DNA from: Armatimonadota bacterium | Lineage (GTDB): Bacteria > Armatimonadota > HRBIN16 | NCBI GenBank assembly: GCA_026003175.1 | Contig: BPGT01000003.1 | Span: 310,001-374,000, forward strand | Direction: 5' to 3' | DNA: 64,000 nt | In this document: positions 26,939 to 44,089 of the stretch, one piece after another | Layout of the letters: each line of letters opens with the position of its first letter | How positions within the stretch are numbered: position 1 is the stretch's first letter | Position numbers and translations under genes: made by a program | The notes under the pieces: generated by a model | Databases searched by the model: none | Told to the model about the DNA's origin: nothing | The model's input: the letters and a program-made list of their open reading frames with translations, nothing else

Positions 26939-26985
26939 ATGGAGCGGGAGACGGGACTCGAACCCGCGACATCCAGCTTGGGAAG
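26939..26985 (-). repeat. att-type direct repeat, distal copy (tRNA-Gly 3' fragment)
   Basis: 47 bases identical to 44043-44089, the 3' part of the intact tRNA-Gly gene (CCA end, acceptor strand, T arm and anticodon 3' half). After 26985 the match stops abruptly. A displaced tRNA 3' end at the far side of a gene block is the classic footprint of integration at a tRNA gene. It marks the distal border of the 17-kb island. Confidence 0.88.
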
Positions 26986-27278: not shown

Positions 27279-28442
27279 TCACCTTTCCCCAATCGCGCCC
27301 ACTCGGTGGTACACTTCTGCTATCCGGGCAGCGGCACGCTCGATCTCCTCCTCGGTATTGAAACGTCCTAACCCCACACGAATGGTGCGATAAGATTGTT
27401 CGCGGCTCAAGCCTATCGCCTGCAACACATGTGATGGTTCCATCGCTCCCGCTGTGCAAGCGGAGCCTGTGCTGAGGGCAACATCGGGCAGGTTCAGCAA
27501 CAGGGCATCCGCTTCGACGTCGGGGAAGGTGAGACTGCTGTTGTTGGGGAGGCGGAGGGAGGGGTCGCCATTATACTGTAACGAAGGGATGCGCTCCTTC
27601 AAGAGCTGCTCCAGGCGGTCGCGCAACTTGCCCACGCGCGTGGCTTCCTCAGGCATCTGCTCGTGGCAAATCCGACAGGCTTCTCCAAATCCCACAATAG
27701 CAGGCACATTTAGCGTGCCCGGGCGCAGGCTCCATTCCTGCCCCCCTCCAAACATCAGAGGTTGTAGTCTTGCCCGTCTGGCTCCTCCGCGCACATACAA
27801 AGCTCCCGCTCCCTTGGGGCCATACAGCTTGTGTGCGCTGATAGATAGCATGTCGAGGTACAGGTGTTCTACGTTCACGGGTATCTTGCCTACTGCCTGT
27901 GCGCCGTCGCAGTGTAACAAAGCCCCACGTTCATGCACCAACCTGCTGATAACCTCCATACGCTGGAGAGTGCCAATCTCGTTGTTCGCCAGCTGGATGG
28001 AAACCAGCAGCGTATTCTCATCTACCGCCTGCTCCAGCGCCGACAGTTGCACATGCCCCAGACTGTCCACAGGCAAGATAATCACCTCATAGCCTCGCTC
28101 TGCCAGCCAGCGACAGGGTTCTAGCACGGACTTGTGCTCTATAGCGCAGGTAACTATCTGTCTCCTGTTGCCGGTGTGCGCCATCGCTGTACCGAGGATG
28201 GCGATGTTGTTGCTCTCCGTTGCCCCACAGGTAAACACAATCTCGGTGCGCTTTGCTCCGATCAGCATAGCGACCTGCTCGCGAGCGGTCTCCACCGCAT
28301 CTGCCGCCCTTCTACCCAGAGGATGGTAGGGGTTGGAGGGGTTCGCCGTGTTCTCTGTCCAGAAAGGCATCATCGCCTGCACCACACGCGGGTCTACAGG
28401 CGTGCTGGAGTGATGGTCCAGGTATATCACCCCTGTGTTCAT
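27279..28442 (-). CDS. cysteine desulfurase, DndA/SspA-like
   Basis: A 387-residue class V aminotransferase-fold enzyme that takes sulphur from L-cysteine as an enzyme persulphide. The PLP lysine is K205 in SISAHKLYGPKG and the sulphur-carrying cysteine is C329 in LSTGSACTAGAMEP. IYLDHHSSTPVDPRV is the usual N-terminus and CGATESNNIAILG binds PLP phosphate. ATG 28442 overlaps the BrxL stop as ATGA. As last gene of the island operon, with a DndC/SspD-like protein upstream, it most likely feeds DNA phosphorothioation. By sequence alone IscS/NifS for Fe-S assembly cannot be excluded, but no IscU or other Fe-S gene is near. Confidence 0.9.
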   Translation of the reverse strand: MNTGVIYLDHHSSTPVDPRVVQAMMPFWTENTANPSNPYHPLGRRAADAVETAREQVAMLIGAKRTEIVFTCGATESNNIAILGTAMAHTGNRRQIVTCAIEHKSVLEPCRWLAERGYEVIILPVDSLGHVQLSALEQAVDENTLLVSIQLANNEIGTLQRMEVISRLVHERGALLHCDGAQAVGKIPVNVEHLYLDMLSISAHKLYGPKGAGALYVRGGARRARLQPLMFGGGQEWSLRPGTLNVPAIVGFGEACRICHEQMPEEATRVGKLRDRLEQLLKERIPSLQYNGDPSLRLPNNSSLTFPDVEADALLLNLPDVALSTGSACTAGAMEPSHVLQAIGLSREQSYRTIRVGLGRFNTEEEIERAAARIAEVYHRVGAIGER

Positions 28443-29878
28443 GTGAGAGCACACTCAATCCGCTCCTGGTACTGGCGATACTCGGCATCAAGGAGGTATA
28501 TCTGACTCCACACCTGCTGACGCAGGCGTACTGCTGGCTCCACGCAATACTGGCGAAACTCTTCGGCAGTGACCTCGCCGTGTGGGAATTGTATCTTCAT
28601 CAGCCCGCTGGCGAGCGAGCGAACCGCTTCCTCGTTCCGATGGTAGCGCTTGCTTCCTCTCACCCGCAGGTGGCGGTGACAGTACTCATCTATCTCCAGA
28701 GCATTGCGCAGCGCAAGCATCGCATCTCCGAAGAAATCCGCCTTCAGCCCTAAAGTGGTAGCAAAACAGTCTGCCGTGAGTTTACGCAACTGCCATCCGG
28801 GCAGCAATCCCCGGATGCGGTCCAGGAAGGCGGTCTCGCGCAGGAACTCGGGCAGTTCTTCCACCAGGGGCTGCTTGACCGGCTGCTGCTGTTCATCCAG
28901 GGTGATGTTCGCCAGCATCACGAAGCTGCAATCACTGGATGTCTCGTGCAAGCCGCCGCGGCTCAGCCTGCCGTTCGCCAGAAAGCCTTTCAGTCCCCCC
29001 ACAATCTCCGCAGGCTTGTCGAAGCGAAGCGTCTGCACCTCATCCAGCACCACCACCGCGTATCGCGCCAGGATACCCCATCGCTCGGTTGCGTTGTTTA
29101 CAAACATCACTGCTGGGGAGACATTCCCACCGCTTACCAGCTTCACATGCGGGCTGATGTTCTCGTAGATGTAGCTCTTGCCCGTGCCTTTCGGAGCCAG
29201 TTCCATCATGTGCGCACTCTTCTGCACCAAGGGGATCAGCCGACACAGTAGCAGCGTCTGCTCATCGGGGGTGAACACTTGCGGATTGTATCCCATAGAG
29301 AGAAGCAGCAGCCATCGCCACTCCTCCAGCGTGAACTCTCGACGCGCTTGCTGGAACAGCTCGATGTCCACGCTGGCTTGCATTGGACGGAAGGAGGTAA
29401 TGACAACCCCCACGCCCTCCACGAACAGCAACTCCACCACGCCCCACATGCCCTCATCGAGCAGCGCGGGATGCTGGCGGACAATCTCGTCGCTGATATA
29501 TGCCTTGGGAATCCCTAGCAGTTTCAGCCGAGCGAACTGCTCCGCCTTGTTCTGGTGGAGCTGTATTTCCACCTCCACAGGCGTCAGCACTTTCACCTGT
29601 TCGCCGTTCTTGAGACGGTGTTTGACGCGCCCTGCATCGCGGGGCCCAGGAATGTAGCGGCTCGCCCACTCCTGCAGACGCTCCGATTCCTGCGGGCTCA
29701 GTGGTCCTTCACCGGGCACAATAGCGTCCAGCACCCATTCGCCCACGTATGCAGGTACACCGCGCTTTTGCAGCTGGCTCATCGGCAGACGGCGCTTGTC
29801 AATGACCAGATTGCCAAACACGCTGCGTGCCTTTTGAGTTACAAGGTGCAGCATATCTGTAGCGACCGTCTCAAACAT
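28439..29878 (-). CDS. brxL: BrxL-like AAA+ ATPase (BREX Lon-related protein, short form)
   Basis: A 479-residue protein of the BrxL/Lon_2 group. The N-terminal region (LVIDKRRLPMSQLQKRGVPA, YVGEWVLDAIVPGEGPLSPQE) and RPMQASVDIELFQQARREFT are family-typical. Walker A is MELAPKGTGKSYIYEN near residue 230 and Walker B is VVVLDEVQTLRF. RLSRGGLHETSSDCSFVMLA follows. Longer BrxL proteins carry a C-terminal Lon-type protease-like domain; this one ends soon after the AAA+ lid, with no visible Ser-Lys dyad. BrxL binds DNA and is needed for BREX phage restriction. The start (ATG 29878 or GTG 29881) is fused to the PglZ stop, showing coupling. Confidence 0.85.
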   Translation of the reverse strand: MFETVATDMLHLVTQKARSVFGNLVIDKRRLPMSQLQKRGVPAYVGEWVLDAIVPGEGPLSPQESERLQEWASRYIPGPRDAGRVKHRLKNGEQVKVLTPVEVEIQLHQNKAEQFARLKLLGIPKAYISDEIVRQHPALLDEGMWGVVELLFVEGVGVVITSFRPMQASVDIELFQQARREFTLEEWRWLLLLSMGYNPQVFTPDEQTLLLCRLIPLVQKSAHMMELAPKGTGKSYIYENISPHVKLVSGGNVSPAVMFVNNATERWGILARYAVVVLDEVQTLRFDKPAEIVGGLKGFLANGRLSRGGLHETSSDCSFVMLANITLDEQQQPVKQPLVEELPEFLRETAFLDRIRGLLPGWQLRKLTADCFATTLGLKADFFGDAMLALRNALEIDEYCHRHLRVRGSKRYHRNEEAVRSLASGLMKIQFPHGEVTAEEFRQYCVEPAVRLRQQVWSQIYLLDAEYRQYQERIECALT

Positions 29879-29880
29879 CA

Positions 29881-32085
29881 CTATTGCAAATCCTCCAGCA
29901 AGTCTGTCGTACGATACATCTCACGGGTCTCGTCGACAATCTCCACCTGTACTGCAAAGGGTATCTCGTTCGCAACAACCTGCAGTTTGGCGTGAACTCG
30001 CTGCCACTGTGCTTTTGCGGGCAGCTTGGGCAGCACCAGATCGACTATAGATCTGGACAGAGCCGCGGTCTCCTGTGCTACTGGTAGCGAATGCCACTGT
30101 TGCTCACCCATCACCAGCTGTAAGGCGTGGAGTTGCACCGAATATTGCTCCAGATTGGCTATTTGCAACTGCATACTACCTTCCCTACCGACCTGTCCTC
30201 TCACAATAACCTTGCCCTGCAAACGAGGAGCTTGCACCTCCCGCACATACACAAGCCAGGGCACAATCACCTCTTCCGGATGGATACCGCCGTGAGCGAA
30301 ACGCTCGCCACCTCCTTTACCGCCTTCCGCAACGAACATGTCGGCATCCAGCGGCACCGCGACCGGGTGTGCTAGCCCAAATCGCTCGGGGTGCAGGTAG
30401 ATGAGGGCATTCTTCTCATCTACGAGATAACCACGCTCGTCAAATGGCAGGGTGCAGCTTCCCCAGGCAGCGCGTCCTTTCGCCTGCATCCCAGCGGGTG
30501 GGTGATACCGCCGGTTGCTGTAGCCAAACATCCTTCCGTGGTCAGAGGTTACCACGATTCGTCCCGGCACACCTGCAGGCATCGCCCGTAGTGCCTCTAC
30601 TATCTTCCCGGCAAGGTTGTCTAACTCAGCAGCCACATCGTGCGCGAGCGTATCGGTATCGTATCGCTCGTGGTATGTCTTATCCGGCTCGTTCACCCGC
30701 CACAGCAAACATTCTCCAGCCTTCGCCTGGCGCAGGCGTTCGATGGGGATATTGCCCTCTGGCAATAGTTCACCCACCTCCGGAACTGGATTTTGCTCAT
30801 CCAGCGCGAAGCGTGGACACTCCCCACGCAGGATGGCAGGCTTGGCGAAAGGGGTGATTGTCGGCAGCGCGCTCAACGCGGGGTGTGGTTCCAAAGCAGT
30901 GATGTCTTCAGACAGCGACACGATTCGAGAGTGCAGTTCCAGCGCGTCTTGCCAGCCTAATCCGTCCAGCACCACCAGCAGGGTCAGATAATCGGGGGCA
31001 AGCAACCGCCTCACACGCCGGAACACGAACCATCGCTGCAGGTCGTCTCCCGCCTGTAATGCGCGTGGATAGAACTCCAGTAGCCAGTAGATGAACTGCC
31101 TGGCGATCTCCTCCGACTTCTGACGCTGCGAGTCGTTACCATATTCCATTACCCAACGGCGATAGGGCAGATATTGTTCCACCGCCCACTTCAAGGCAGA
31201 TGCAACATCCTGTGGCTCACCGAAGGGGGATGGCTCTTCAGGAGGGATGAGCTGCTCTATCTGACGCCTGCGTTCCGGGCTAAGATAAGGGAAGAGCACT
31301 TCAGCCGTTTCTCTGGTGAGTAAGTCGGTATGGTGCAGGTAGTACGTCGCTCCCTCCTCTGCGACAATTTGCTTGGCTTCGGGAGCGACAGCGCGGTTGC
31401 GCAGGTAGTCGGAAACCTGTTGGCTTGCACGCACATACCACTCTCTGGCGATTGCATGCAATCGCCGTTTCCACTCGGCGGGCAGGGGCAGAGGGAAAGG
31501 AGGCAGGTCGTGTCCCAGATGCGTACGCTGCGTCAGACACAGCCATTCCTCCATCAAGCGGCGTGCAGTCTCGGCATTGTAAGCCCTATACACAGGTTGA
31601 AGCCGCTCTTCTGCCCGGTCGCTCCAGAGGTAGGATTGCTGACACAATACTACCTGTTCTGCCTCGCTGGAAGAGGTTTCTTGTAGCCATACAAGCCACC
31701 AAGCTGCATGTTCTACGGACAACGGTTCGTACCATCTGGCTTCGGGATACAGGCGCGATAGAATATCCGTGACGCTCCAGTCGTTTTGTGGAACATGCTT
31801 ACTTTGCACCAGACGCAGGGCAATGTGGTGCGCTTGTTCTTCACTCAGCTGCGGGCAGATATGTATCAGGGTGCGTCTGGGAGAACTTACCTCCTTGTAG
31901 GCTATCTGCCGACCCCGATAGAAACGCTCTGCCCATTCGCACAGGTGCTTGCCACGAATGAACAACCGTTCCGAGCACAGGGCGTGTTCCAGAAAGGCAA
32001 CCTCATCGTCTATGACGAGGTAGCCCTCGGGGACGATAGCGTCTCCGTACTTATCCAGCAAGATATGTGGTGGATGGCTTTTCAT
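29881..32085 (-). CDS. pglZ: PglZ-type alkaline-phosphatase-superfamily protein
   Basis: A 734-residue protein whose central/C-terminal half is a PglZ domain. The metal-binding start is VVLDGLGWQDALELHS (Asp at about 373), then SALPTITPFAKPAILRGECP, and VVTSDHGRMFGYSN (about 511-524) with the Asp-His pair. The N-terminal 350 residues are helical and the end is beta-rich (YSVQLHALQLVMGEQQWHSL). PglZ is the hallmark of BREX and Pgl phage-resistance systems and is a predicted metal-dependent phosphodiesterase or nuclease. It is sandwiched between the BrxC-like ATPase and BrxL in the usual BREX-like company. Confidence 0.92.
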   Translation of the reverse strand: MKSHPPHILLDKYGDAIVPEGYLVIDDEVAFLEHALCSERLFIRGKHLCEWAERFYRGRQIAYKEVSSPRRTLIHICPQLSEEQAHHIALRLVQSKHVPQNDWSVTDILSRLYPEARWYEPLSVEHAAWWLVWLQETSSSEAEQVVLCQQSYLWSDRAEERLQPVYRAYNAETARRLMEEWLCLTQRTHLGHDLPPFPLPLPAEWKRRLHAIAREWYVRASQQVSDYLRNRAVAPEAKQIVAEEGATYYLHHTDLLTRETAEVLFPYLSPERRRQIEQLIPPEEPSPFGEPQDVASALKWAVEQYLPYRRWVMEYGNDSQRQKSEEIARQFIYWLLEFYPRALQAGDDLQRWFVFRRVRRLLAPDYLTLLVVLDGLGWQDALELHSRIVSLSEDITALEPHPALSALPTITPFAKPAILRGECPRFALDEQNPVPEVGELLPEGNIPIERLRQAKAGECLLWRVNEPDKTYHERYDTDTLAHDVAAELDNLAGKIVEALRAMPAGVPGRIVVTSDHGRMFGYSNRRYHPPAGMQAKGRAAWGSCTLPFDERGYLVDEKNALIYLHPERFGLAHPVAVPLDADMFVAEGGKGGGERFAHGGIHPEEVIVPWLVYVREVQAPRLQGKVIVRGQVGREGSMQLQIANLEQYSVQLHALQLVMGEQQWHSLPVAQETAALSRSIVDLVLPKLPAKAQWQRVHAKLQVVANEIPFAVQVEIVDETREMYRTTDLLEDLQ

Positions 32086-32111
32086 TTTGTCCGTGAACCG
32101 CGTCAGTGCTT

Positions 32112-33932
32112 CTATCCTCTCAGACTCTCCAGTTCCCTCAACCTATGGTCTATCTCCTCGCGCAGCTGTCGCAGCTTCTGTACGTCCCGTATCTGGCGCA
32201 GGCGGCTACGCACGTTCTCAACCGCATCCTCGTCTATCCGGCGCTGCACCTCCGCTTTCAGCGACTCCAGATTCGGCTTCTGCTCTTCTGGCAGGAAGGC
32301 GGGCGGCTGCGACAGCTGCTGCAGCAGTGTGGATAGACCTTCTCCCTGTTGGCTGATAGCTCGTTGCTCGAGCTGCTGCAACCAGTGCGACGCTTCTTCC
32401 ACCTTCTTCTGGGCATACTCTTCCAGCCGACGTCTCGCCTGCTCAACTGCCTTGTGTACCGCCGGATGTTGGCTCTGCTGGCGCAGCTCTTCCAGTTCCC
32501 ACTTCGCCTCCTTCACTCCTGCAGGGTCAGGGGGCGAGGAATTCGCTACCTCCGAGACCTGCCGCAGCAGAGTCATGACCTGCTGACACTCCTCCACAAG
32601 CTGTTTGACCTGCTGCTCTTCATCGGTACCTTCGTAGTGTGTCCAGTACCTGTTCGTCTGCTCTTGCAAATGCTCCAGAGCAGCCCTATCCTCCGCTTTA
32701 ACAAAAGCCTCACGCCACTGGCGCAGACGACTTTCCGATTGCTGGATAGCCTCCTCGATCTGGTTTCGCTTCTGCCGATATATCTCTTGCGCTTTCGCAG
32801 ACTGCAGGTTCATCTGCTGCAGGCGTTTCACGTAATCGCGCAGGGTTGCTAAACGCGCTCCTGTATCCATCATCCGCATCTCGCTAATCAGCGACTCCTC
32901 CGCCGCCTCTTGGCGCAGCTGCTCGGCACGTTCTTGCACGTTCCGGATAGCCTGTTTAACTCGGTGTTCCAACCCCTGATTCTTCGTGAGCCTGATATAT
33001 GGTATGATAGCCCGCAACCCATCCTCGTACTTGCTCACATCTTCTAAACGACGGAGTTGTTCCGCCTCGCTGCATATTGCTTCCACTCTTTGCCGGAAGC
33101 GTTCCATCAGGCGGCTCTGAATATCCTGTACCGACGGGGAACTTGGGAGTACAATACCGAGGCTCGGTAGACCGGGTTTGGAATAAGCCTCAGCAAGGGG
33201 ACGTAACCCCGATTCCAACTGCGCCATCTTCAGCAGATGTTCTGCTCTCTGGTCGTAGCGAAGAGCAATGCCTATATCTTCCTCCAACATCTGGACAGAG
33301 CGCTGGATATTCTCTCGTAGACCTTCGTCGTCCTCCAGATTTTCCAGAGCCGAACGCAGTAAGGATAACGCCTCCTCTGCCTCCTGCTGGCTGAGGTATT
33401 CCGTGCGTGAGAGAATGGTCCTGACCATCCGCTGCACCTTTTCTCTCTCTCTATCCACATCTCGTCTCTTGATAGCAACATGATGGGTGTAGACCATTCT
33501 CTCGATGAACCGTTCTGAGCGGTCCACCTTTTGAAGGTTCCACACAGATAGTAGACTATCTAACTTGCCGTCTATACTGAACTCCAGATACTTCCGGTGG
33601 TATCCGTACCAAGCGCTAAACAGGAGAGACAGTTGATGGAAATGGTAGCCATAAGGCGGGTTCATCAAACGCAGGAGCACGTCCCGCACCTGTGTCGCTA
33701 CCTCCGTGCTGGAGAAAGCCTGATCGAGCTCGTGCCAGGCATGTTGTACGACGGAACCCGGCGGCGGAGGCTGGATAGTATAGTCCGACTTTAGGATGCG
33801 CCACTGTGCCTGCAGATACTTGTGCACACAGTCCCTGCCCGGACGGTTACCGAACGTATCCACAATATCTCTTACCCTGTCTTCGGCGAGCTTGTGGCAG
33901 ATTTGCCTTATATCTGCGCGTAGCGTGCTACT
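32112..33932 (-). pseudogene. coiled-coil C-terminal part of the BrxC-like ATPase, in another frame
   Basis: About 606 codons without a convincing start codon or ribosome-binding site. The frame continues upstream only as shadow sequence inside the end of the ATPase gene. The coding part begins near DIRQICHKLAEDRVRDIVDT, followed by LMNPPYGYHFHQLSLLFSAW, which looks like a domain, then about 400 residues of long heptad-rich helices (RVKQAIRNVQERAEQLRQEA, WELEELRQQSQHPAVHKAVE). BrxC/PglY ATPases are usually around 1200 residues, so I read this as the C-terminal half of the 33934 gene, split by a frameshift near 33935. A separate coiled-coil gene with an unusual start remains possible. Confidence 0.6.
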
Positions 33933-33933
33933 G

Positions 33934-36324
33934 CTATGCGGGGTACTGATCGAAGAAGGGCGGTGCAAACCGGTATACCTGTTTGTACAGAAGACGCAGG
34001 GCTTCCGAAACTGTATGAGGGTTCTCCTGCTGCAGAAACGCTCGGTAGGCACGAGGCACCACCAGGAGAGGAGAAGTACCAGACTGCAGAGGAACACTAT
34101 CACTGAGCAGTCTCTGCTTCGCTTGCTCAATCTGCTTTTGTGCCGTATCATGCTCCTTTCTCATGAGTTCGTCGCCAATCTGCTGTCTGTCCGCAGGTGG
34201 CATGCTTAGCCAGAGATAGTTATCCCAACGAACCAAATAGAGCAGGTCAGGCATCGGCTGCGTTGGAAGCACCACCAGTATCGCTGGAGCGTTCTCGTCG
34301 GGAAAAGCCCGGTCCAGTATCTCGGAAACACGTTCCGCCAACCCGTCCAGTTCTTCCTCACTCAGAGCAAGCAATCGGATAACTAAACCACGCTTCCACT
34401 CCGTGCTTAGCCCATTGTTGGTTGTCCTGACAAGAGGCGCATCACGCCGCAGGTTTTGCTCGGTGAAGTCGCGCACCAGCCAGATGACCTGTCTTGCTTG
34501 CCAGTCATCCCTGTGACCCCACGTCACGTTGACTTCTGGCGTCACTTGGAAACGTTCGTTGAGCAGCTTCACGTGCTCGCTCGATATCGGTTCGCTCCAT
34601 ATTCCGTTCTTGATTTGCTGCAGCTTTCTCAGGTCGCCTCCCAGCGAGTAGAATCGGTATCTTCCCTGCTCCTCATAGAGAGCAAACACCTCTACCAGGT
34701 GCCGCAGAGTGTGAGCCACGATACCAACATCCATCCCTGTCAGATGCGATACTATCTGCATGAAGTTGTCGCGAAGGGTCGGGATGCTGGTCAAGGTAAG
34801 AAGCAAGATTGCCTTCAACACTGCGATCTGTTCCGAGGAAGGTTCTCCCTCAATACGCTTCAAGGCATTTTCGTACTGAAACCGCTCATGCTCAGGTAGC
34901 ATGCCCTCAAAGTAGTCTATCAGCTCGATGGGGTAAATCCAGTTGGGCTTACCACCCGCGATAACCGCAGGTTCACTGATCTTACTTCCCACACGCTCCT
35001 GCACGAAACCGAGCACCGTACGGGCAGTTTCTATCTGAACGTTTGCGATAGGGATGCCCTGGCAGAGGATAGCGGTCGTTAGAGGATGGAGTGGAAAACA
35101 TCCTTTGCTGACAATCTCGTGGAACTGTTCGTCTGTCCACTGTTGCTGCTCCGAGTACCGGCTACTAAACGCCTTCCTCGCCAAAACGCTCGCCTCCCAG
35201 AGGTGGTCATCCAGATCTGGATGTTGACGCAACAGGTCAGGGAAGGGGGTGTTCTCCTGAGACAGGTAGCCATCTATCACTTGTTCCATGCGGGTGTGCA
35301 GACTCAGTTTGTTGCGTCCTGGAATGCGCTGCAGTTCCTTGAGTGCCTCCTCTATTTGCTGTTCGGATGCACTTCGCATCGTATTTCGTACCACCACAGA
35401 GGGATCATGCTGGGCAAAGGCGAGCAAGAGTACCCGCGAACGCAGGGTGTCAACCATCTCCAGCAGGCGCTGTAGCGAACCCGCATACCTGCGCTGCAGG
35501 TAGTAACGTTCAACAAATTGCGAGAACTCGTCGAAGAGGATTAACACTCCCCCGAAACGTTGCCCCTCATCACAATAGTGCTGCACCAGCCAACGCAGCA
35601 GTTCTCGTGGCTCCAGGTCACCCTCAAAATGGGGGAAGGCTCCGGTCAGGTACTTGAACAGCTTGTTGACCACCTCGTAGGTATCTGCATCAAACTGTCT
35701 TACTCGCTCCACGAGCGCAGGCAGGTCCAGCTGATACTGTCTCAAGAACTGGTTCGCTTGTTCTTCGTATCCCCTCTGAGGCAGACTCTGCAACCATTCA
35801 GCTGCTTTCTGGTACCACAGGGGAAGATTACCATCCACCCCAGCTTCCTGCAAGGCACGTCGCATCGCTTGCAAGAACTGCTGGTCCAGCGGCAAGGGGC
35901 TGTCTCCATGCAGGCGCAATACCAGATACGGCTTTCTCTGCTCCCGAAACTCGCGCAGATTGCTTACCCGCGCAGGGTCCCCTTCGTAATGCTCAATCTT
36001 GCCCATCACGATGCGGAACTCTTCCGAATCCACATCGCGCCCGAAGTAGTTGGCCAGCACCAGCCCAAAGTGGCTCTTGCCCTGCCCATAGTTGGCGATG
36101 ATGCAGAAGATATTCTCTCGGGTTTCGGTCAGGCTGGCTTCGCGCAGCCTGTGCAGGATATCGAGGTTGGACACCATCCCCTCTGGTGCGAAGCGGGCGA
36201 ACACAAAATTCTTCAGCAGAGTAAGGTTGCGCTGCTGCTCCGTGTAGAAGTCTATCTGCACCACACTTTGTTCGGTGATGTGCTCGTCCAGTTTCACCAG
36301 GTCACCGATGGTATAAGCGTGCAT
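33934..36324 (-). CDS. BrxC/PglY-like P-loop ATPase (N-terminal part)
   Basis: 796 codons. Walker A is IIANYGQGKSHFGLVLANYF near residue 75 and Walker B GGVLILFDEFSQFVERYY near 275, followed by a sensor-like LLLAFAQHDPSV. The beginning (YTIGDLVKLDEHITEQSVVQ) and the KGCFPLHPLTTAILC motif resemble BREX BrxC/PglY-type ATPases that form oligomeric DNA-bound assemblies. A run of G (GGGGGT) precedes ATG 36324. It ends at QVYRFAPPFFDQYPA, much earlier than typical relatives, and a same-strand frame takes over at once, so a frameshift is likely. It sits directly upstream of pglZ, as brxC genes often keep company with pglZ. Confidence 0.75.
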   Translation of the reverse strand: MHAYTIGDLVKLDEHITEQSVVQIDFYTEQQRNLTLLKNFVFARFAPEGMVSNLDILHRLREASLTETRENIFCIIANYGQGKSHFGLVLANYFGRDVDSEEFRIVMGKIEHYEGDPARVSNLREFREQRKPYLVLRLHGDSPLPLDQQFLQAMRRALQEAGVDGNLPLWYQKAAEWLQSLPQRGYEEQANQFLRQYQLDLPALVERVRQFDADTYEVVNKLFKYLTGAFPHFEGDLEPRELLRWLVQHYCDEGQRFGGVLILFDEFSQFVERYYLQRRYAGSLQRLLEMVDTLRSRVLLLAFAQHDPSVVVRNTMRSASEQQIEEALKELQRIPGRNKLSLHTRMEQVIDGYLSQENTPFPDLLRQHPDLDDHLWEASVLARKAFSSRYSEQQQWTDEQFHEIVSKGCFPLHPLTTAILCQGIPIANVQIETARTVLGFVQERVGSKISEPAVIAGGKPNWIYPIELIDYFEGMLPEHERFQYENALKRIEGEPSSEQIAVLKAILLLTLTSIPTLRDNFMQIVSHLTGMDVGIVAHTLRHLVEVFALYEEQGRYRFYSLGGDLRKLQQIKNGIWSEPISSEHVKLLNERFQVTPEVNVTWGHRDDWQARQVIWLVRDFTEQNLRRDAPLVRTTNNGLSTEWKRGLVIRLLALSEEELDGLAERVSEILDRAFPDENAPAILVVLPTQPMPDLLYLVRWDNYLWLSMPPADRQQIGDELMRKEHDTAQKQIEQAKQRLLSDSVPLQSGTSPLLVVPRAYRAFLQQENPHTVSEALRLLYKQVYRFAPPFFDQYPA

Positions 36325-36468
36325 TAGCGTTACCCCCTACCTCTGTTCCCTTCCTTCTCGCTCGCGTCGCTACATCGCTTACTCGTGCGCACTGGCGTGC
36401 GCTACTACCAACCTTTGCCCGTTCGTAGTGAAGCATGTGAGTGCTTCACACCTTACTCGTGAAAGGCA
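36325..36468. other. intergenic gap inside the island operon with a hairpin
   Basis: 144 bases with no gene. An 8-bp stem GTGAAGCA/TGCTTCAC (36428-36449) could mark an internal pause, processing site or the border of two co-inherited modules (modification versus effector). Confidence 0.4.
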
Positions 36469-36918
36469 CTACAACCGGGCACAGCGGTTTGTCTTCTCCC
36501 ACTCCTGCAAGGGGGGCAGCAGATGCTCTGCCCCATCTGGCATCAGTACCAGCACCACACGTCGACGATGAGGCATTCCTTGCCGTACGTGATACCATAC
36601 CTGAGCGCGTTCGCTCTCCGAAACCCCTGCCAGTAGCAGGTCCAGGTTCACCACCAGCGCACGCTTCTGACCGGTAGACTGCTGGCTGATATCGTCTAAC
36701 CACTGTCCGATGCGCGATGCACCCAGACCGGCATAGCGCGATGCTTGGGGCACCGCGTTGCGTGCTATCTGGGCGATGTCCTCTACATCCGCCAGCAACC
36801 GTGCGGCGATCTCCTCTGCCTGCGCCAGCCGCGAGGGAGGCACCAGCAACAGCCCCGTCTTTAACCGGTTGCCTGGCGTCTCCAGATTCTCAATCATCTT
36901 CAGCACCCGCTCGTGCAT
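36469..36918 (-). CDS. small unknown protein of the defence operon (BrxF-like position)
   Basis: 149 residues. Strands and helices follow an alpha/beta pattern: TGLLLVPPSRLAQAEEIAAR, a helix around GASRIGQWLDDIS, then RALVVNLDLLLAGVS and RRRVVLVLMPDGAEHLLPPL. The outline is like small P-loop proteins of some BREX types (BrxF), but the Walker A position reads LLVPPSRLA and lacks GK(S/T), so it would be nucleotide-binding-dead if related. The start is ATG 36918 or, with an 8-base ATGATTGA overlap to the upstream stop, ATG 36897. Function unknown; its place next to the BrxC-like gene suggests an effector-module role. Confidence 0.6.
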   Translation of the reverse strand: MHERVLKMIENLETPGNRLKTGLLLVPPSRLAQAEEIAARLLADVEDIAQIARNAVPQASRYAGLGASRIGQWLDDISQQSTGQKRALVVNLDLLLAGVSESERAQVWYHVRQGMPHRRRVVLVLMPDGAEHLLPPLQEWEKTNRCARL

Positions 36919-37741
36919 ACGCCCGCTCTAAGAAGACCTCCTTATCCTGCCACAGACGCACTGCCTGATACGGCGGCGCCACCCGATACAGGTCCACCAC
37001 TCCGCGCAGTTTCAACTTCTGTAGCTGCTCGCCCGCCGTGCCTGAGTCCATCCAGAACAGCGACGCCCAGCCGCCTGCTTTCGTCAGGTCCGAAAGGTTG
37101 ACGGTCACCTGCCCTGGCCAGTGGTGCTCCCAGTAGTCTGCCAGCGTATACGCCAGCACCCACTGCGGCGGTGGATCGGGATGGAGAACGGTGTACACCC
37201 CATCTTCTTCCTGCAGAACCTGCAGGGCGCGCAAGCCGTCGCTGCGTGCGTAGGTGCCCAGAAAGATGGTAGCAGTGCTTTGCAGGGCGCGTGGCGTGGG
37301 CTCTTTTTGTCCCTGTTCCCGCAGGATATCCGCCAGCTCCTGCGCTACCTCGCTGCTGCGTAGGGTGCGCCCCGGACGCAGGGTACGCGTGACCAGACCA
37401 TGCCAGAACAAGGGTCCCGGTCCTTGAGGCGCACTGAGGTGGTAGTGCATCAACCACTGCGTGACCTCGGACAGGAGGGAAGGATCATTTTCTAGAACCT
37501 TTCTTCCAAATTCGGTGACTCGATACTTATCGTCTATGAGACCACTTCCTTGAGCATACCTTGGCATAGCTTTGCAGTAGCGAGTGCCAAGCGTTGTATT
37601 CTCACGCAGATGATCGAAAAGTGTCGTTCGTTCCCGGTCCCATGCCTGTACTGCTTGTAGCACCGAAGCTACAGCAGGACGCGAGAGAGCGAAGGTTTCG
37701 TGGAACACTGTCCCAATTCTAAACTCTTTCGTTGCTTTCAT
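36890..37741 (-). CDS. DUF4007-like protein 2
   Basis: 283 residues. IGTVFHETFALSRPAVASVLQ at the N-terminus keeps the HETF of DUF4007 but not the RxGWLKKG that follows in the canonical member at 42528. Further on come VTEFGRKVLENDPSLLSEVTQ WLMHYHL (a common DUF4007 pattern, here given in two parts) and a winged-helix-like C-terminal half (LADYWEHHWPGQVTVNLSDL). ATG 37741 follows GAGGT. It overlaps its neighbours on both sides, so it is firmly part of the operon. A second DUF4007-type DNA-handling protein, perhaps serving the effector module, is an inference. Confidence 0.65.
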   Translation of the reverse strand: MKATKEFRIGTVFHETFALSRPAVASVLQAVQAWDRERTTLFDHLRENTTLGTRYCKAMPRYAQGSGLIDDKYRVTEFGRKVLENDPSLLSEVTQWLMHYHLSAPQGPGPLFWHGLVTRTLRPGRTLRSSEVAQELADILREQGQKEPTPRALQSTATIFLGTYARSDGLRALQVLQEEDGVYTVLHPDPPPQWVLAYTLADYWEHHWPGQVTVNLSDLTKAGGWASLFWMDSGTAGEQLQKLKLRGVVDLYRVAPPYQAVRLWQDKEVFLERAYARAGAEDD

Positions 37742-38278
37742 CCTTATACCTCACGGTTCTCAGACGATATGCTTGTGGGTTGCTAGACTCTCGCGCCAAC
37801 AGTTCTACAATTGCTTCTCGCAGGGATCTTCTCTGCTCTTCGTTAGTCATCACATCCACCATGTAATCGGACAAATAGGCATACTCAACGTTCCGGAGTA
37901 CATTTCCTTTGCCTCTCCTTTGCCTCCTCAAGGCGTACACATCGCTTGATAAGACAAAGTGCGGTTAGGATACACCTTGTGGAACCAGAAATCAGAGGTA
38001 CGCAAATGGTAGAAAGGAGGACCTATCTGGCACCAATCTCTCGCTCCCGCCACCATGCGGAAATAGAATCGGGATCGTCTCTCCAACTCTCTGTTGAGAT
38101 ATATGCGATTATCGAAGATTAGCCCGTCTTCGTAAAGGTCAACCACCGCAAGCAGAAGCACCACCTTGTGTGGCTTTGGAGCACCCTTTCTCCCATACCG
38201 CCGTAGCTTGTGTAACGCTTCAATGGCACGACATAGGCTATTGCTTTGTTTGAGGCTTACAGATGACATACCAAACAC
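37719..38278 (-). pseudogene. sulphur-binding-domain-like PT reader, split by a frameshift
   Basis: Two overlapping frames, 37928-38278 and 37719-37940. The first has KPHKVVLLLAVVDLYEDG and IGPPFYHLRTSDFWFHKV, the pattern of the N-terminal domain of HNH/ScoMcrA-type enzymes that binds phosphorothioated DNA. The second continues that domain with YAYLSDYMVDVMTNEEQRRS LREAIVELL, here split for display. The junction GATGTGTACG would be in frame if one TG were removed, restoring QAMYALRRQRRG. Alternatively the GTG inside restarts translation across the TGA. No HNH nuclease domain follows. Preferred start ATG 38269, 13 bases inside the PP-loop gene. A reader of the sulphur mark is inferred. Confidence 0.6.
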
Positions 38279-39063
38279 CCTTCGTTGTTTTCCTCGTCTA
38301 TTGCACTGAAAACCTCCACGAGCGTGCGATTTGAGCGATTCTTGATAGTTTGCTGGCGCCTGATACTCTCAGCCTTTATCTTCATCGCACGTTCTGGATT
38401 AATGAGATCGTGCAGCGTCTCTCCCTCGCCCCATGTGTACCTCTCCCCCGTTACGGTATCCACTTTTTCATATTTGGCCGCTTCCTCAAACAGGTCTGGA
38501 TGATTCTCCCATAAGCCGAGCCATTCCACCTTCTGTTGAAAAAAGCAGAAGAAGCATCCTGAGCGCGAACGCCATCGGTAGTATGCGGGCAGCCCTAACC
38601 CGCTTTCCTCCAGGATGCGCAGGACATCCTCCTTCGTGATGCCGTCTTCAACGAAGGGAAAACGGGTAATGATGTTGGGCTTGGTGGAGATATAGCCCTT
38701 GCGCTGTGCCTCGTCAGCCCGAATGCCCACATAGTTGACGCACGGATCATCACCTACATAGCGCTCGAAGGGCTCCAACTTCAACTTGCGTGTACACCAA
38801 CGACTCCTCGGGTCAGGGAGTACACCGTTATAGACAAGCAGCCAATGGTCAAACGGGCGGTCTGGATTAAGCCTCTCAATCCTTTTGCCGAGGTAGGCTT
38901 CTAACTTCTCGATATATTCGTAGGTTTCGGGGAGTTCCTTTCCGGTATCCAGGAAGACATACTCCATTTCGGGCACGCGGTCGCGCATATAGACGGCGAG
39001 GGCAGTGCTGTCCTTGCCCCCGGAGAGGGAGAGGATATGTCGTAAGGGCTTCTGGGCTTGCAT
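38257..39063 (-). CDS. DndC/SspD-like PP-loop (PAPS reductase family) protein
   Basis: 268 residues. The PP-loop SLSGGKDSTALAVYMRD (motif 14-19) binds and pyrophosphorolyses ATP. EYVFLDTGKELPETYEYIEK, RWCTRKLKLEPFERYVGDD and YVGIRADEAQRKGY follow, then GCFFCFFQQKVEW with cysteines placed as in DndC/SspD, and a C-terminal CLVCHL. In DNA phosphorothioation systems this protein adenylates the DNA backbone and takes part in sulphur transfer from DndA/SspA. Ordinary PAPS reductases differ in the downstream cysteine arrangement and in genome context. It is 148 bases downstream of the large ATPase gene. Confidence 0.85.
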   Translation of the reverse strand: MQAQKPLRHILSLSGGKDSTALAVYMRDRVPEMEYVFLDTGKELPETYEYIEKLEAYLGKRIERLNPDRPFDHWLLVYNGVLPDPRSRWCTRKLKLEPFERYVGDDPCVNYVGIRADEAQRKGYISTKPNIITRFPFVEDGITKEDVLRILEESGLGLPAYYRWRSRSGCFFCFFQQKVEWLGLWENHPDLFEEAAKYEKVDTVTGERYTWGEGETLHDLINPERAMKIKAESIRRQQTIKNRSNRTLVEVFSAIDEENNEGCLVCHL

Positions 39064-39211
39064 GGTATCGCCTTTAGGGAAAAACGTGTTTTGGTTGTTT
39101 ATCCTTCGACGAACGTCGTCAATCTCCTTCTATTTGGCGACCGAGTGCTAATATTCACCTGCGCTTGTCCCTTTTCCTCGTTCGCAATAGCGCATATGAG
39201 TGTGCTCTCTT

Positions 39212-42200
39212 TTACCCCTCCTGCGATTGCTCCTGCAGCAAACGGAGCAATGCGCTCAGCCGCACCCGGGCGGGAAGGTTGCCAGAAAGCAGCCGGCGCA
39301 TTTGTTCCAGCAAGTTGTCGCGCAGCGCCGTTTCCTCGGGAGTGAGCGCCACTTCCTGAGCGGCTAAGCGCACCGCCTGCTGGAAAAGCTCACCGTAAGT
39401 GCGAGCAGATTCTGGGAAACGCTCCACCTCTACATCCGTCCACGCACGTGGTGGCTTTCCCCCTACCAGCGCCAGCACGCTTTCCAGCGCAGCTTCCTCT
39501 TTGCTCGTCTCCGTGCCTGCTGTAGAGGTGTAGGCAGCTCGCAGCAGCAAAGGCATCAGGTGGGGGTTCACCCCTTTGTCTCTCAAATCGGTCGCCTGCT
39601 GGCGGAAAGCCTTCCAGCCTTCATCCCCTTCGGGCAAGCCGCAGGCTTTGAGCAGTTCGTCGCGCGCCCACCGGATGACATGAGGTGTCGCTTCCTGCAG
39701 CTCTTGTAACGTGCTGATTAGAGCGTCGGCAAACCGTTCTGCCTTCTCCACAGGCACTCCCAGGGCAGAGGGCACATCGTGATACAGTAATCGCTCGGGG
39801 GAGTATGCCTGTAGAACTGCTTGACGCAGCGCGAGAGCAGTGGAGGAGAGGCGTTTGGTGCGCTTGGCGTGATCGGGCAGCAGGCGAATACGCCGTACCA
39901 GTTCGCGTACAACGGGCACGGTCTTGGGAGCAACGTTCCAGCGCTGCGCAATCTGTTGAAGCATCTCCGCCTTTGTTCCCTCGGTACGGCACCCCGCGAC
40001 CGCGAACAGCTCCGGTCGGCGTAGTAGCACTTCCCAGTCCGCAATGCCCGGTTCGGGCAGAAAGGTGCCTTCGCGGTAAAGGGAAGTTTCGTCGGCGTAC
40101 ACCTGCAGGAAAGCGCACAGGATCACAGGAAACACGCCGGGCGTGATACCGTATGGGGGACGCACCAGCTCCTGCAGCAGCTCCGCGACGTTCACACGCT
40201 CAGGAGGCTGGGTGAAGATACGGGCGTACATCCGTTCCCACACCAAGTAGAGGCGTCGCGGGTGTCCAGTCGGTGGAGGAACGAAACGCCAGCCAAGCCC
40301 ATCTGGTGCATGCAAGCCAGTGGCATGTAGAACGCTCTCGTACATACTGCGTTCAGGCGGGTACCCTGTGATACCTAACCGCTCCTCGCCCGGATGTTCG
40401 AGCATCGCCTGTATGAGGTTACGGCGTCCTGCCGCCGCAGCGGAGGATAGCGTCCAACGGTTAATCAGCTCGTTATGCAGCAGAGGCGTGTGCGTATACA
40501 GCCTGTCGCACACTTCCGAAAGCAGACTGGACAGGGAGCGTTGCGCCTTCTCCGTCCACTCCTCACCACGATAAAACCACCGACACGAGTGCAGAGCTTG
40601 CTGTACCTGTTCGCGGATAGCGGCTGTGACGAGGTCGGTACGTTCGCGCAGTTCCCGCCGTGCTACAGGATCATCGCGCAGTGCAGGGGTGTGGTGTTGC
40701 ACCCATTCCAGGCAAGCGAGTTCTATCAGCGATTCGTGTAAGCGCACCTCTCGCAGAGGAACCCCTATCACCGCCTGCATCTGTTGTGACATCTCAGGCG
40801 ACCGCGCCCACGCCTCAAACTGTTCCACCTGAGACCCGTGTCGTGGCAGGCACAGGTATATCGTTCCTGCAAAGGAATCTGAAGTGGGCGAAGCAACCGA
40901 CTGCGGAAGATGGCTGAGGATGCGGTCATCCAGATAGCGCATCTCAAAGGCGCGTAACGTACCCGTTTGATAACTGTGTCGGCGTGCCACAAGAGGTAAC
41001 GGCGGAACCAACCGGTTTAACAGATCAGCCAGGTTCACCTGATGCCCAACCTGCCGACGCGCCTCTTGCAAGCGTTCCTCCACGTCTACGTCGCTGCCCT
41101 GCCAGACCCTGTAGGTGCCGTTGAACGAGCGATACACAATCGCCGACCGCTGCCGAAGGTGCTGCAGAACAGCTTGCAGCTGCGTTTGGTCTACCCGAGG
41201 GTGGACGGCGCACTGCAGTGCTTCCAGATTAGGACGCACAATGCTCACCTCGCCCGCCCACTGCAGCATTGCCAGGCTCTTCAGCACCAGCGTTTCGGTT
41301 TCGCCCCATGCCTCACGCAGTAGTATCTGCTCCACCTGTGCAACGGGGCGCAAAGGCACGCTGGTGTACACGGCGTGGCGGAAGTGAGTAGTGACATAGT
41401 CGAAGAGACAGCACAGGTCGTAGAGAGCAGGGGGATTACCGGGCGACACGGGACGATGTAAAAACTGCTGAAATCCGAACGGTTCTTGCAGCGTGAGGAA
41501 GGCAAAGAGCGACCGCTCGTTCTGAGCGTGGTGACGAAACAGATGGGGTAGCAACACAAGCGCCAGGGGGTGCAGAGGATACACCTGCTCGGCTAGCCGC
41601 ACAAACTCCTCCGCACGCATCCCAGACGGCGACAACCGATGGGTAACCATCTCTTCCGCCAGTGCTCTGCACATCTGCCGCCCCCGCAGTACCGGTTGGG
41701 CAGTCGCATCACCCTCCACTGCGTACCCAACCAGCCGCATCATCTGTTCCGCACTTTCCACGAAGGCGATGTCCTCAAAGCGTCCCTGCACCTTCGCCCA
41801 TTCGTTGCGGACGCTCTGTTCCAGTGCCTGAGCGTAGTGTTCAAACGCCTGATGCAGGATACCGACGAACACCGCTTCCCAGCGCGGCGCCATCTCTGCT
41901 ATCTGCTGTAGCAGGTAAAGGTCGCCCGAATCGGGGTGCAGAGCCGCATATTCCAAGGTTTTGCCCAGCTCGTCCAGAATAATCAGCAGGGGGCGTCGCT
42001 CTCTTTCAGCCAGCCGCTCGATGCTGGTGAACACCAGATCGTCGAGGGTACGTGCACGGAGAGGTGGAGATTGCAGGGAGGTTCTTATCTGCTCGCGCAG
42101 GTCGTCAGGCAGAGATGGCAGTTCGGCGATAGATTCCAGCAGGCACACAGCTGGGGATGTACGCCGTCCTACTGCCAGGACAGGTAGGAAGCCGGGAAAG

Positions 42201-42535
42201 GTCTCCACGTGTGCTGCCAAGTCGGCGTCTACTCTGCGCAGCTTGGTCATTGCCAGCGGATGGGAAGGATGCTCCCGGTGAAGCAGGGCACTCAGGAACA
42301 GGGCGAAGAGTGATTTGCCCGAGCCGTAAGGACCCGTAAGCGTCCATGCACGCTGCGAGATCTGGATGCCGTTGAGCAATCGCTGTAGACTGGTCAGCGC
42401 GTGCGCACTCAGCACATAGCTTTCCAGAGCATATGCAAAGAGGGCATCACGGCGCAGGTTGACTGAGCGCATGATCCCTTGCCTGACGTGTACCTGTTCG
42501 AACAGGGTATGGGCAGCTACTAATTCGCTACTCAT
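39212..42535 (-). CDS. large P-loop ATPase of the modification module (SspC-like position)
   Basis: 1107 residues. Walker A is WTLTGPYGSGKSLFALFLSA (GSGKS at 71-75) and Walker B is PLLIILDELGKTLEYA near 190. An early helical region and a long C-terminal half of mixed alpha/beta segments (HATGLHAPDGLGWRFVPPPT; EAERFADALISTLQELQEA-like helices) complete it. ATG 42535 overlaps the DUF4007 stop by 8 bases. In Ssp loci an ATPase (SspC) accompanies SspB and SspD; the coupling to DUF4007 supports the same role here, but this protein is longer than the SspC I remember and could be a distinct ATPase family. No frameshift is seen. Confidence 0.7.
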   Translation of the reverse strand: MSSELVAAHTLFEQVHVRQGIMRSVNLRRDALFAYALESYVLSAHALTSLQRLLNGIQISQRAWTLTGPYGSGKSLFALFLSALLHREHPSHPLAMTKLRRVDADLAAHVETFPGFLPVLAVGRRTSPAVCLLESIAELPSLPDDLREQIRTSLQSPPLRARTLDDLVFTSIERLAERERRPLLIILDELGKTLEYAALHPDSGDLYLLQQIAEMAPRWEAVFVGILHQAFEHYAQALEQSVRNEWAKVQGRFEDIAFVESAEQMMRLVGYAVEGDATAQPVLRGRQMCRALAEEMVTHRLSPSGMRAEEFVRLAEQVYPLHPLALVLLPHLFRHHAQNERSLFAFLTLQEPFGFQQFLHRPVSPGNPPALYDLCCLFDYVTTHFRHAVYTSVPLRPVAQVEQILLREAWGETETLVLKSLAMLQWAGEVSIVRPNLEALQCAVHPRVDQTQLQAVLQHLRQRSAIVYRSFNGTYRVWQGSDVDVEERLQEARRQVGHQVNLADLLNRLVPPLPLVARRHSYQTGTLRAFEMRYLDDRILSHLPQSVASPTSDSFAGTIYLCLPRHGSQVEQFEAWARSPEMSQQMQAVIGVPLREVRLHESLIELACLEWVQHHTPALRDDPVARRELRERTDLVTAAIREQVQQALHSCRWFYRGEEWTEKAQRSLSSLLSEVCDRLYTHTPLLHNELINRWTLSSAAAAGRRNLIQAMLEHPGEERLGITGYPPERSMYESVLHATGLHAPDGLGWRFVPPPTGHPRRLYLVWERMYARIFTQPPERVNVAELLQELVRPPYGITPGVFPVILCAFLQVYADETSLYREGTFLPEPGIADWEVLLRRPELFAVAGCRTEGTKAEMLQQIAQRWNVAPKTVPVVRELVRRIRLLPDHAKRTKRLSSTALALRQAVLQAYSPERLLYHDVPSALGVPVEKAERFADALISTLQELQEATPHVIRWARDELLKACGLPEGDEGWKAFRQQATDLRDKGVNPHLMPLLLRAAYTSTAGTETSKEEAALESVLALVGGKPPRAWTDVEVERFPESARTYGELFQQAVRLAAQEVALTPEETALRDNLLEQMRRLLSGNLPARVRLSALLRLLQEQSQEG

Positions 42536-43487
42536 CACCGCCACTGCTCCGACGGTAGTATTGCTCCAGCAAACCAAAGGCGAGTTCGTCTATGGTCTCT
42601 ATCTGATCGAGGTGCAGGAAGACCTGGGTGAGGCCTGCAGTTTCCACCACGTCCAGCGGTCCATGGGTGTGCGAAGCGATTTCATCCACAGCGTGCAGCA
42701 GGCTATCTTCGTCTAATCGAAACGCCTGTCCGGGACTGCCCGGTGCGTAAAGGCACTCCTGCAGAGCCACGCTCCTTCTGTGCGGAGCACGAGCACGGAC
42801 GAACTGTAGAAGAGCGAACCCTATCACAGAGGCAGGTAATGTTTCCTTTCTCCCGATGCGGAATCGATACACGCCATCTGCATCCGCGGGGCGTATCAAC
42901 TCCAAATCCGCGAGAGGGCAATCGAAAGACGCCTCCGGCACAGAGGATGCAGCATGTACACTGGGAGTGTATGTGCGCAAGAAGCAGTCCACATCTCGAG
43001 CGACAGATGCGGCAGAAATCGGCTGCTGTTGCCGTTCCACCACAGATTGCAAAAAGGACACCAATTGCGGCTTGGTAAACTCATTATCGGGATAGGTTGC
43101 GAAGAGATACCACCACGCGCTGGCACGCAGGGGGTTGGTCACCAGTAGCCAGTGTATCAACCAGAGTGAAGCGGGATCTTCCAGATAAGGGTCCCAACCA
43201 TCGTCCGCTAGCAGGCGATCACCGATTGGTGTAGTTTGAAGAGGCTTGCTTCCCGTCGGGCCTGGCTGCTCTTCCACGACCCTGGTGGCAAGACACCAGA
43301 AACGGATAGAGCGCACCATGTTCTTCCCCACGCCGAGCCGCACTACCGCATCATCTCGCATGAAGGCGAAGCCATCCTCTCGCACCGCGTCGTAGCCCTT
43401 CTTGAGCCAGCCGGTTCGGAAGGCGAAAGTTTCATGCGCCCCCACCACGTAGCGGGGTTCACCTGTGCCCACAACCTCTCCTCTCAT
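42528..43487 (-). CDS. sspB: DUF4007 protein (SspB-type)
   Basis: 319 residues with the full DUF4007 signature at the N-terminus: VVGAHETFAFRTGWLKKGYD, then DAVVRLGVGKNMVRSIRFWC, IGDRLLADDGWDPYLEDPAS and LWLIHWLLVTNP. SspB of the SspABCD system belongs to this family and is reported to nick DNA for single-stranded phosphorothioation. First gene of the island operon. The start is uncertain: ATG 43487 or GTG 43472; neither has ideal spacing to GGAGAGG. Remaining sequence is alpha-helical with no second domain. Confidence 0.82.
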   Translation of the reverse strand: MRGEVVGTGEPRYVVGAHETFAFRTGWLKKGYDAVREDGFAFMRDDAVVRLGVGKNMVRSIRFWCLATRVVEEQPGPTGSKPLQTTPIGDRLLADDGWDPYLEDPASLWLIHWLLVTNPLRASAWWYLFATYPDNEFTKPQLVSFLQSVVERQQQPISAASVARDVDCFLRTYTPSVHAASSVPEASFDCPLADLELIRPADADGVYRFRIGRKETLPASVIGFALLQFVRARAPHRRSVALQECLYAPGSPGQAFRLDEDSLLHAVDEIASHTHGPLDVVETAGLTQVFLHLDQIETIDELAFGLLEQYYRRSSGGDE

Positions 43488-43947: not shown

Positions 43948-44042
43948 AACACATCTCTCCTTCCACCAGTATCCCGAGGAAGACACAAGGTGTAGGGTCT
44001 GCACAGGGGATACGGTGTCCAGTCACACGAGATATAGAAGAA

Positions 44043-44089
44043 ATGGAGCGGGAGACGGGACTCGAACCCGCGACATCCAGCTTGGGAAG
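44043..44089 (-). repeat. att-type direct repeat, tRNA-proximal copy
   Basis: 47 bases identical to 26939-26985 in the same orientation; here they are part of the intact tRNA-Gly gene. Together the two copies bound a block of about 17.1 kb. Confidence 0.88.

Follow-up and report, generated by a model that had tools for sequence, protein, structure and literature searches.

We analyzed a 64,000-nucleotide stretch of the genome of an Armatimonadota bacterium (assembly GCA_026003175.1, contig BPGT01000003.1, positions 310,001 to 374,000), referred to here as the window, and in it a gene train that combines Ssp-type DNA modification genes with effectors of the bacteriophage exclusion (BREX) type. 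The train is a single operon on the minus strand (27279-43487), whose genes mostly overlap or nearly abut and follow one another in the order SspB, SspC, SspD, a broken gene for a sulphur-binding domain (SBD) protein, a second DUF4007 protein (DUF4007b), a 149-residue protein, BrxC2, PglZ, BrxL and a cysteine desulfurase. The original prediction had listed the same ten genes; all were present in this order and on this strand, and profile searches backed the names. Its modification genes were borne out by whole-model PADLOC matches of SspB, SspC and SspD, and its BREX-type effectors by the identification of BrxC from structure and of PglZ and BrxL. No methyltransferase was found among the genes of this island, either in the list of open reading frames (ORFs) or by Pfam, PADLOC and NCBIfam profile searches, in agreement with what had been proposed. 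Two features had been overlooked, namely that the second ATPase is also split between frames and that the operon is flanked by a 47-bp direct repeat of tRNA-Gly sequence and a truncated integrase.

Writer and effector genes

SspB (42528-43487, 319 residues) is the first of the two DUF4007 proteins and the predicted DNA-binding partner of a phosphorothioate (PT) writer. It matched the Pfam DUF4007 model at E = 6.9e-85 and PADLOC SspB at E = 2.7e-94, and it fell within the SspB clade of a DUF4007 tree. SspC (39212-42577), an Orc/Cdc6-type AAA+ ATPase that we call engine 1, is a 1121-residue ORF opening at TTG, with the true start probably some codons later. Besides PADLOC SspC (E = 1.9e-292), it also matched the PADLOC BrxC model PDLC02478 (E = 1.5e-218); it carries a Walker A motif (GPYGSGKS) and a Walker B motif, and the GK[ST] and DE residues were 100% conserved in the homologue alignment. 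The PP-loop (PAPS-reductase-like) sulphurtransferase SspD (38257-39063, 268 residues) matched the whole PADLOC SspD model (E = 9.5e-117) and Pfam PAPS_reduct (E = 4.5e-12), and the BrxP model at E = 3.2e-10 with partial coverage only. Its SGGKDS motif and two CxxC pairs were invariant among 31 homologues. The protein is thus placed with SspD and not in a tRNA-thiolation or Fe-S family, the assignment that the original prediction had named as fatal to it. The cysteine desulfurase (27279-28454, about 391 residues), for which we propose the SspA/DndA role, matched aminotransferase class V at E = 2.3e-79, retains the conserved pyridoxal phosphate lysine (AHK) and active cysteine (GSAC), and recurs in this position in about 20 related loci. 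It scored 430 bits with NifS, 411 with IscS and 406 with DndA, each below the model's cut-off, and these models do not separate the families; other desulfurases in the same genome are 46 to 47% identical to it.

The second ATPase, BrxC2 (engine 2), begins with an N-terminal ORF of 796 residues that contains the AAA+ domain (33934-36324). Its C-terminal half lies in another frame (32112-33950, in an ORF listed as 32112-34151) and aligns with the C-terminal part of the single-ORF proteins of loci L013, L014 and L016. BrxC2 had no Pfam match above the cut-off, and its relative in L031 matched no PADLOC model at E <= 1e-5, so that detection programs are likely to miss the exclusion half of this system or to call it only in part. 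The AlphaFold2 model of the first 796 residues (predicted local distance difference test [pLDDT] score, 85.7) found its best PDB match in BrxC of the Acinetobacter BREX system (9zdx/9zll), with a Foldseek E value of 3.2e-10 and Z = 18.2 over 484 residues, the next unrelated chain having a Z of 13.3. Judged by this predicted structure, the second ATPase is a BrxC; its Walker A and Walker B motifs are GQGKSH and LFDE.

Upstream of BrxC2 lies the 149-residue protein (36469-36918), which was modelled with an AAA+ core fold (pLDDT, 94.4). BrxB from the crystal of the BrxC-BrxB-PglZ complex (9zll_G) was among its structural matches at E = 0.019, at Foldseek rank 44 among many AAA+ proteins. The BrxF model did not match the window's protein and matched weakly in loci L055 and L056, where the proteins at the same place keep both Walker A and Walker B. 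These Walker-bearing counterparts, the fold and the gene's position fit, and do not prove, a degenerate BrxB/BrxF-like role for this small P-loop protein.

PglZ (29881-32085, 734 residues), a metallo-enzyme of the alkaline phosphatase fold, matched PADLOC PDLC02549 over its full length (E = 1.9e-82). In Pfam it reached 21.1 bits, below the 25-bit cut-off, and a Pfam PglZ search of the window's own genome returned nothing above threshold, which shows that plain domain searches miss the system. Its weak top NCBIfam match was a BREX type 3 model (2.8e-5). The metal-ligand-type residues D374, T409, T411, D515, H516 and H598 were invariant among 27 homologues, and we found no PglZ relatives in phage records. 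The Lon-like AAA+ protein BrxL (28439-29881, 480 residues) scored 505.7 bits with TIGR02688, for which the cut-off is 329.3, and matched PADLOC BrxL at E = 2.4e-213.

The SBD gene lies between SspD and DUF4007b. Its N-terminal half (37928-38278, 116 residues) ends early by a frame change and, as a fragment, matched an NCBIfam PT-DNA restriction family at E = 0.0093; the remainder, read from the DNA, continues in another frame at approximately 37720-37945 (frame translation NVLRNVEYAYLSDYMVD). The N-terminal half aligns with intact SBDs of 151 to 178 residues, and the profile of this SBD family matched PDB entry 8h0l (SBDHga1) at E = 2.3e-39. The original description of a split sulphur-binding-like protein was therefore right. 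The residues PHK and PPF were invariant in 14 of 14 aligned rows, with the N-terminal half of the window's SBD among them, and seem to match positions H116, R/K117 and P165 of the described SBD, where the roles of the sulphur-pocket residues are known (PMC6224610). In loci L038 and L052 the SBD is fused to the N terminus of DUF4007b. SBD presence could not be explained as the property of one clade, since supported branches force at least 5 to 6 gains or losses.

DUF4007b itself (36890-37741, 283 residues) matched Pfam DUF4007 at E = 2.9e-11. It forms a deep clade of its own, and the depth of the split between the two DUF4007 types indicates that the doubling is not recent. DUF4007 has a BrxA-like tripartite DNA-binding build (PMC12839542). 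In type 1 BREX, BrxA restricts DNA binding by BrxC, with which it associates, and BrxB bridges BrxC and PglZ (PMC13326643); PglZ itself is a metal-dependent nuclease (PMC12205998). By sequence and modelled structure, engine 2 would thus have a counterpart for each core BREX part save the methyltransferase.

Recurrence and co-variation of the components

A scan for DUF4007b in 84,980 species genomes yielded 32 clear loci (L022-L053), many of them in metagenome bins and not independent of one another. The order SspB-SspC-SspD-(SBD)-DUF4007b-small protein-BrxC2-PglZ-BrxL-desulfurase was found without gaps as far as BrxL in about 20 of the 32, as well as in Thermomicrobium roseum (L071), and the two large ATPases and two DUF4007 proteins, already singled out in the original prediction, are conserved across the family. 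The suggested search for the same order in other genomes thus found it in more than 20 other loci, a recurrence that excludes a chance arrangement. SspBCD accompanied the effector genes in all 25 loci with enough flank, upstream on the same strand in 24 and convergent downstream in one (L023/L108). Most hosts were Chloroflexota and Thermomicrobia, with some Armatimonadota (L045 = G145, L052 = G010). Bins named Acidobacteriaceae, Deltaproteobacteria, Thermaceae and Paludibacter also carry the family, and some of these may be mis-binned. Cultured carriers are T. roseum, Anaerolinea thermolimosa and Levilinea saccharolytica. The system is nevertheless rare: DUF4007b of this family was found in one (G005) of nine other genomes examined from the window's genus, 7 of 291 genomes of its phylum matched at 1e-20, two of them divergent, and 4 of 400 sampled genomes of the phylum of G153 matched at 1e-60.

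Elsewhere, the system was found on plasmids: a megaplasmid of T. roseum has it, and a plasmid of Pseudanabaena galeata encodes a more distant form that likewise includes the two DUF4007 proteins and the two ATPases. Beside this divergent system lies a gene annotated as "DNA phosphorothioation-associated putative methyltransferase" (L073, 6273-8387). In L109 (= L024), a 771-residue protein encoded between SspC and SspD (4916-7231) looked DUF262 (GmrSD/SspE-type)-like by eye. An orphan effector set was present on an Annamia dubia plasmid (L072, 4185-9564), where BrxC2 is interrupted by repeated insertion-type ORFs and no SspBCD is annotated; its breakage by insertions would fit dependence on the writer, whether the mark acts as a veto or as a licence. 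At L054 (8952-14030), a full-length BrxC2 homologue and a divergent DUF4007b form another orphan pair, with no SspBCD, PglZ or BrxL nearby.

Could the two gene sets be unrelated systems that happen to lie side by side? Ssp sets and BREX type 4 sets are each found alone elsewhere (L058-L070 and L020, respectively). Against this stand the recurrence of the ten genes in one order at more than 20 loci, from several phyla and from plasmids, the cohesion of both halves through the L023/L108 rearrangement, and the correlation of all component distance matrices with one another (0 of 500 permutations in each case). We regard an accidental neighborhood as very improbable indeed.

The correlations of pairwise distances, computed over about 20 loci, also resolved the operon into two blocks. 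SspB and SspC formed the first (r =.97). BrxC2, PglZ and the small protein formed the second (BrxC2-PglZ,.97; small protein-PglZ,.93; small protein-BrxC2,.92), while correlations across the blocks ranged from.74 to.84. When the background given by SspC, PglZ, BrxL and BrxC2 distances was removed, SspD remained correlated with DUF4007b in its N-terminal third (partial r =.53;.32 to.64 when groups were dropped; 0 of 1000 permutations) and not in its C-terminal third (partial r =.03); no such link was seen between SspB and DUF4007b. The C-terminal third instead tracked BrxC2 and PglZ (.89 to.90). The near-identical operons L040 and L042 present the same pattern, as SspD is 69% and DUF4007b 64% identical between them, the first 60 residues of DUF4007b only about 20%, and the SBD is absent in one and present in the other, whereas the remaining components are 88 to 98% identical. 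The boundary of this exchange falls in the middle of DUF4007b and not at a gene border. SspD, SBD and the N-terminal part of DUF4007b may thus be exchanged together as a writer/reader cassette, which makes DUF4007b a candidate for the hinge between the mark and the effector engine.

These blocks bear on whether writing, too, requires engine 2, with the whole locus acting as one BREX type 4 machine that contains a duplicated ATPase/DUF4007 pair. The one-engine BREX type 4 locus L020 (BrxP-DUF4007-small AAA-BrxC-PglZ-BrxL; BrxP model, 9.4e-80) evidently manages with a single set, which favors a joint machine of this kind. In known systems, however, SspABCD alone writes PT (PMC8092258), and in our family SspB/SspC on the one side and the small protein/BrxC2/PglZ on the other evolve as distinct blocks, with DUF4007 copies too deeply split for a recent duplication; we consider a joint machine improbable. 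The Anaerolineaceae bacterium NAT123 (L066/L107) has a BrxP-type BREX type 4 locus in which the DUF4007-ATPase pair is present twice. A two-engine plan therefore exists outside SspD-type loci as well, and together with L020 this locus shows that the layouts grade into one another. Because it carries two such pairs, L066 was dropped as an example of plain one-engine BREX type 4. The locus also encodes a small protein where BrxF would stand and unknown proteins of 908 and 259 residues, followed by PglZ and BrxL.

Relation to known systems and proposed mechanism

The original prediction held that PT replaces methylation in a BREX-like system. Modification genes do accompany the effectors, and a methyltransferase is lacking; the idea is not new, however, as it corresponds to the published BREX type 4. 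As described, this type replaces the methyltransferase with a PAPS reductase, contains homologues of SspB, SspC and SspD and frequently includes a desulfurase (PMC12839542), with the components BrxP, BrxC, PglZ and BrxL credited there to Goldfarb 2015. PT synthesis by brxPCZL is likewise reported in PMC11931770, which cites Yuan et al. 2024 (also cited in PMC12839542). Our island resembles type 4 in its PAPS-reductase-type sulphurtransferase, DUF4007, SspC-like ATPase, PglZ, BrxL and desulfurase. It differs in that the ATPase and the DUF4007 protein each occur twice, distributed over two co-varying blocks, in a free-standing, putatively BrxB/F-like protein and, at about half of the loci, in an SBD as putative reader. 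In addition, the sulphurtransferase is a separate 268-residue SspD-type enzyme and not BrxP, which in its proper form is long and often fused to DUF4007. The type 4 described there has one BrxC, one DUF4007, five or six components and BrxB-like domains fused to PglZ, and no mention of a doubled ATPase/DUF4007 set was found in that description (PMC12839542).

Among other known systems, SspABCD-SspE and SspABCD-SspFGH share with the island SspB, SspC and SspD in order and a desulfurase, and an SBD reader would agree with their PT-sensing effectors. Here, the effector is BREX-like (BrxC2, PglZ, BrxL) and not the SspE GTPase-nuclease or SspFGH, neither of which was matched by any island protein in PADLOC. 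Compared with the BREX type 1 core (BrxA, BrxB, BrxC, PglZ, BrxL), engine 2 appears to have counterparts of all five, yet PglX is missing and the sequences have diverged so far that PglZ falls under the Pfam cut-off and BrxC2 finds no match. BREX type 3 comprises BrxF, BrxC, PglXI, BrxHII, PglZ and BrxA. The island resembles it in the free-standing small AAA+ protein of about 150 residues ahead of BrxC, but it has BrxL, its small protein fails the BrxF model, and type 3 was dropped because the marker genes PglXI and BrxHII (a helicase) are absent. HerA/FtsK BREX-related capture systems were dropped for absence of their marker genes, too. The earlier comparison with PbeABCD did not hold up: PbeA is an HKD-nuclease/helicase, PbeC a CxC ABC ATPase and PbeD is DndE (PMC10853773), and none of these marker domains was detected in the island with Pfam, PADLOC or NCBIfam.

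Among the papers searched, none pairs SspBCD with PglZ and none links PT and Thermomicrobium in a relevant way; an earlier mention of the layout may nevertheless exist. The fitting PADLOC PglZ and BrxC models suggest that some members are already contained in BREX reference sets. The link between sulphur and BREX is thus published, while the two-machine layout appears to be undescribed.

We lean towards the view, with somewhat better than even confidence, that the system is a two-engine PT exclusion system, in which SspABCD writes PT as a self-mark and engine 2 excludes unmarked DNA. In this horizontally acquired system, the cysteine desulfurase would hand sulphur to SspD, which together with SspB and the SspC ATPase would place PT in host DNA, at a short motif and on a single strand. 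BrxC2, bridged to PglZ by the small, putatively BrxB/BrxF-like protein, would inspect DNA together with BrxL and block the replication of DNA that lacks the mark. The N-terminal part of DUF4007b would read the mark or its motif, aided in some members by the SBD or fused to it, and the C-terminal part would belong to engine 2. Gene content and its conserved order, homology, catalytic motifs, the modelled folds of BrxC2 and of the small protein, the co-variation blocks and the signs of mobility are observations; the PT chemistry, the self/non-self polarity, the adaptor role and phage defence itself are what we infer here. More tentatively still, and short of an even chance, modification and exclusion may each have an AAA+ engine of their own, with the exchangeable SspD-SBD-DUF4007b-N cassette connecting the two engines and both setting and reading the sulphur mark; BrxC and PglZ would then have no role in modification. 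If so, nature would have uncoupled functions that are fused in type 1 BREX.

Several observations speak against this picture of a writer and a separate excluder. The BrxB-BrxC-PglZ core of type 1 BREX is needed for modification too (PMC13326643), and a clean division of labor may therefore be wrong. The SBD is missing from about half of the loci, where another reader must serve. Adjacent genes can co-vary by block recombination alone, without functional coupling, most family genes are labelled hypothetical in annotated records, and SBD and BrxC2 are both frame-broken in the window.

The polarity might also be the opposite one: PT in host DNA, sensed via SBD/DUF4007b, would license engine 2 to attack unmodified phage DNA in the manner of SspE. 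PT stimulates SspE, whose writer is likewise SspABCD (PMC8092258, PMC9646914), the SBD is by its profile a predicted PT binder, and the effector genes are never intact without SspBCD, given the interrupted BrxC2 of the orphan set L072. On the other hand, SspFGH, served by the same writer, is inhibited by PT and damages unmarked DNA (PMC8092258), and about half of the loci lack an SBD. We think a licence of this kind rather unlikely.

BREX biology has yet to explain how one BrxC complex can both modify DNA and exclude phages. In the present family both jobs are seemingly given to separate ATPase/DUF4007 pairs, so that each could be deleted alone, and its presence in cultured, genome-sequenced bacteria makes it directly testable. 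DUF4007b, with or without SBD, is suggested as the part that informs the exclusion machine of the mark, with L040 and L042 as a natural swap.

Island boundaries and state of the window copy

The frame change in BrxC2 of the window lies near 33936. In the same-genus relative L013/L022, both broken genes are intact (SBD, 178 residues; BrxC2, 1307 residues up to the end of the contig). Most other loci encode BrxC2 in a single ORF of 1390 to 1870 residues; in L026 and L038 it is split at other places. A programmed frameshift is not favored, because most relatives have a single open frame. The window copy would thus reflect either recent breakage or assembly errors.

It is quite possible, if not our first expectation, that this copy is a decaying, non-working relic. 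The two frame-broken genes, a truncated integrase and the intact copies in relatives all point that way. On the other hand, the window proteins have lost none of their catalytic motifs and deviate at only 0 to 8 places per protein among columns that are at least 95% conserved, and the breaks may be assembly errors. Of the flanking genes with counterparts in a same-genus genome, all but one doubtful case have open frames. A single ORF of the same-genus genome corresponds to two ORFs of the window that lie in different frames at 61131-62052, where a frame break outside the island is possible as well.

The operon's ends are marked by a 47-bp exact direct repeat corresponding to the 3' end of a tRNA-Gly gene, with copies just beyond both ends. 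The tRNA-Gly (CCC) gene, identified by ARAGORN on the minus strand (44044-44118), is the integration site; one attachment repeat lies inside it (44043-44089) and is identical in 47 of 47 bases to the other at the far end of the island (26939-26985). Adjoining the tRNA gene is a truncated tyrosine integrase on the minus strand (43576-44004) that has the N-terminal SAM-like domain only (Phage_int_SAM, E about 1e-3), and no catalytic part was found in any frame downstream of this fragment. The repeats at both ends and the integrase remnant mark the operon as the entire cargo of a tRNA-integrated island of about 17 kb. No attachment-like repeats were found at the tRNAs of L039 and L041, and relatives of the window or L033 integrases were absent from the other family loci. 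Beyond the tRNA gene, pieces of the segment 44277-44931 recur dozens of times in the window's own genome and in sister genomes, and this segment is probably a small repeat or an insertion-type element.

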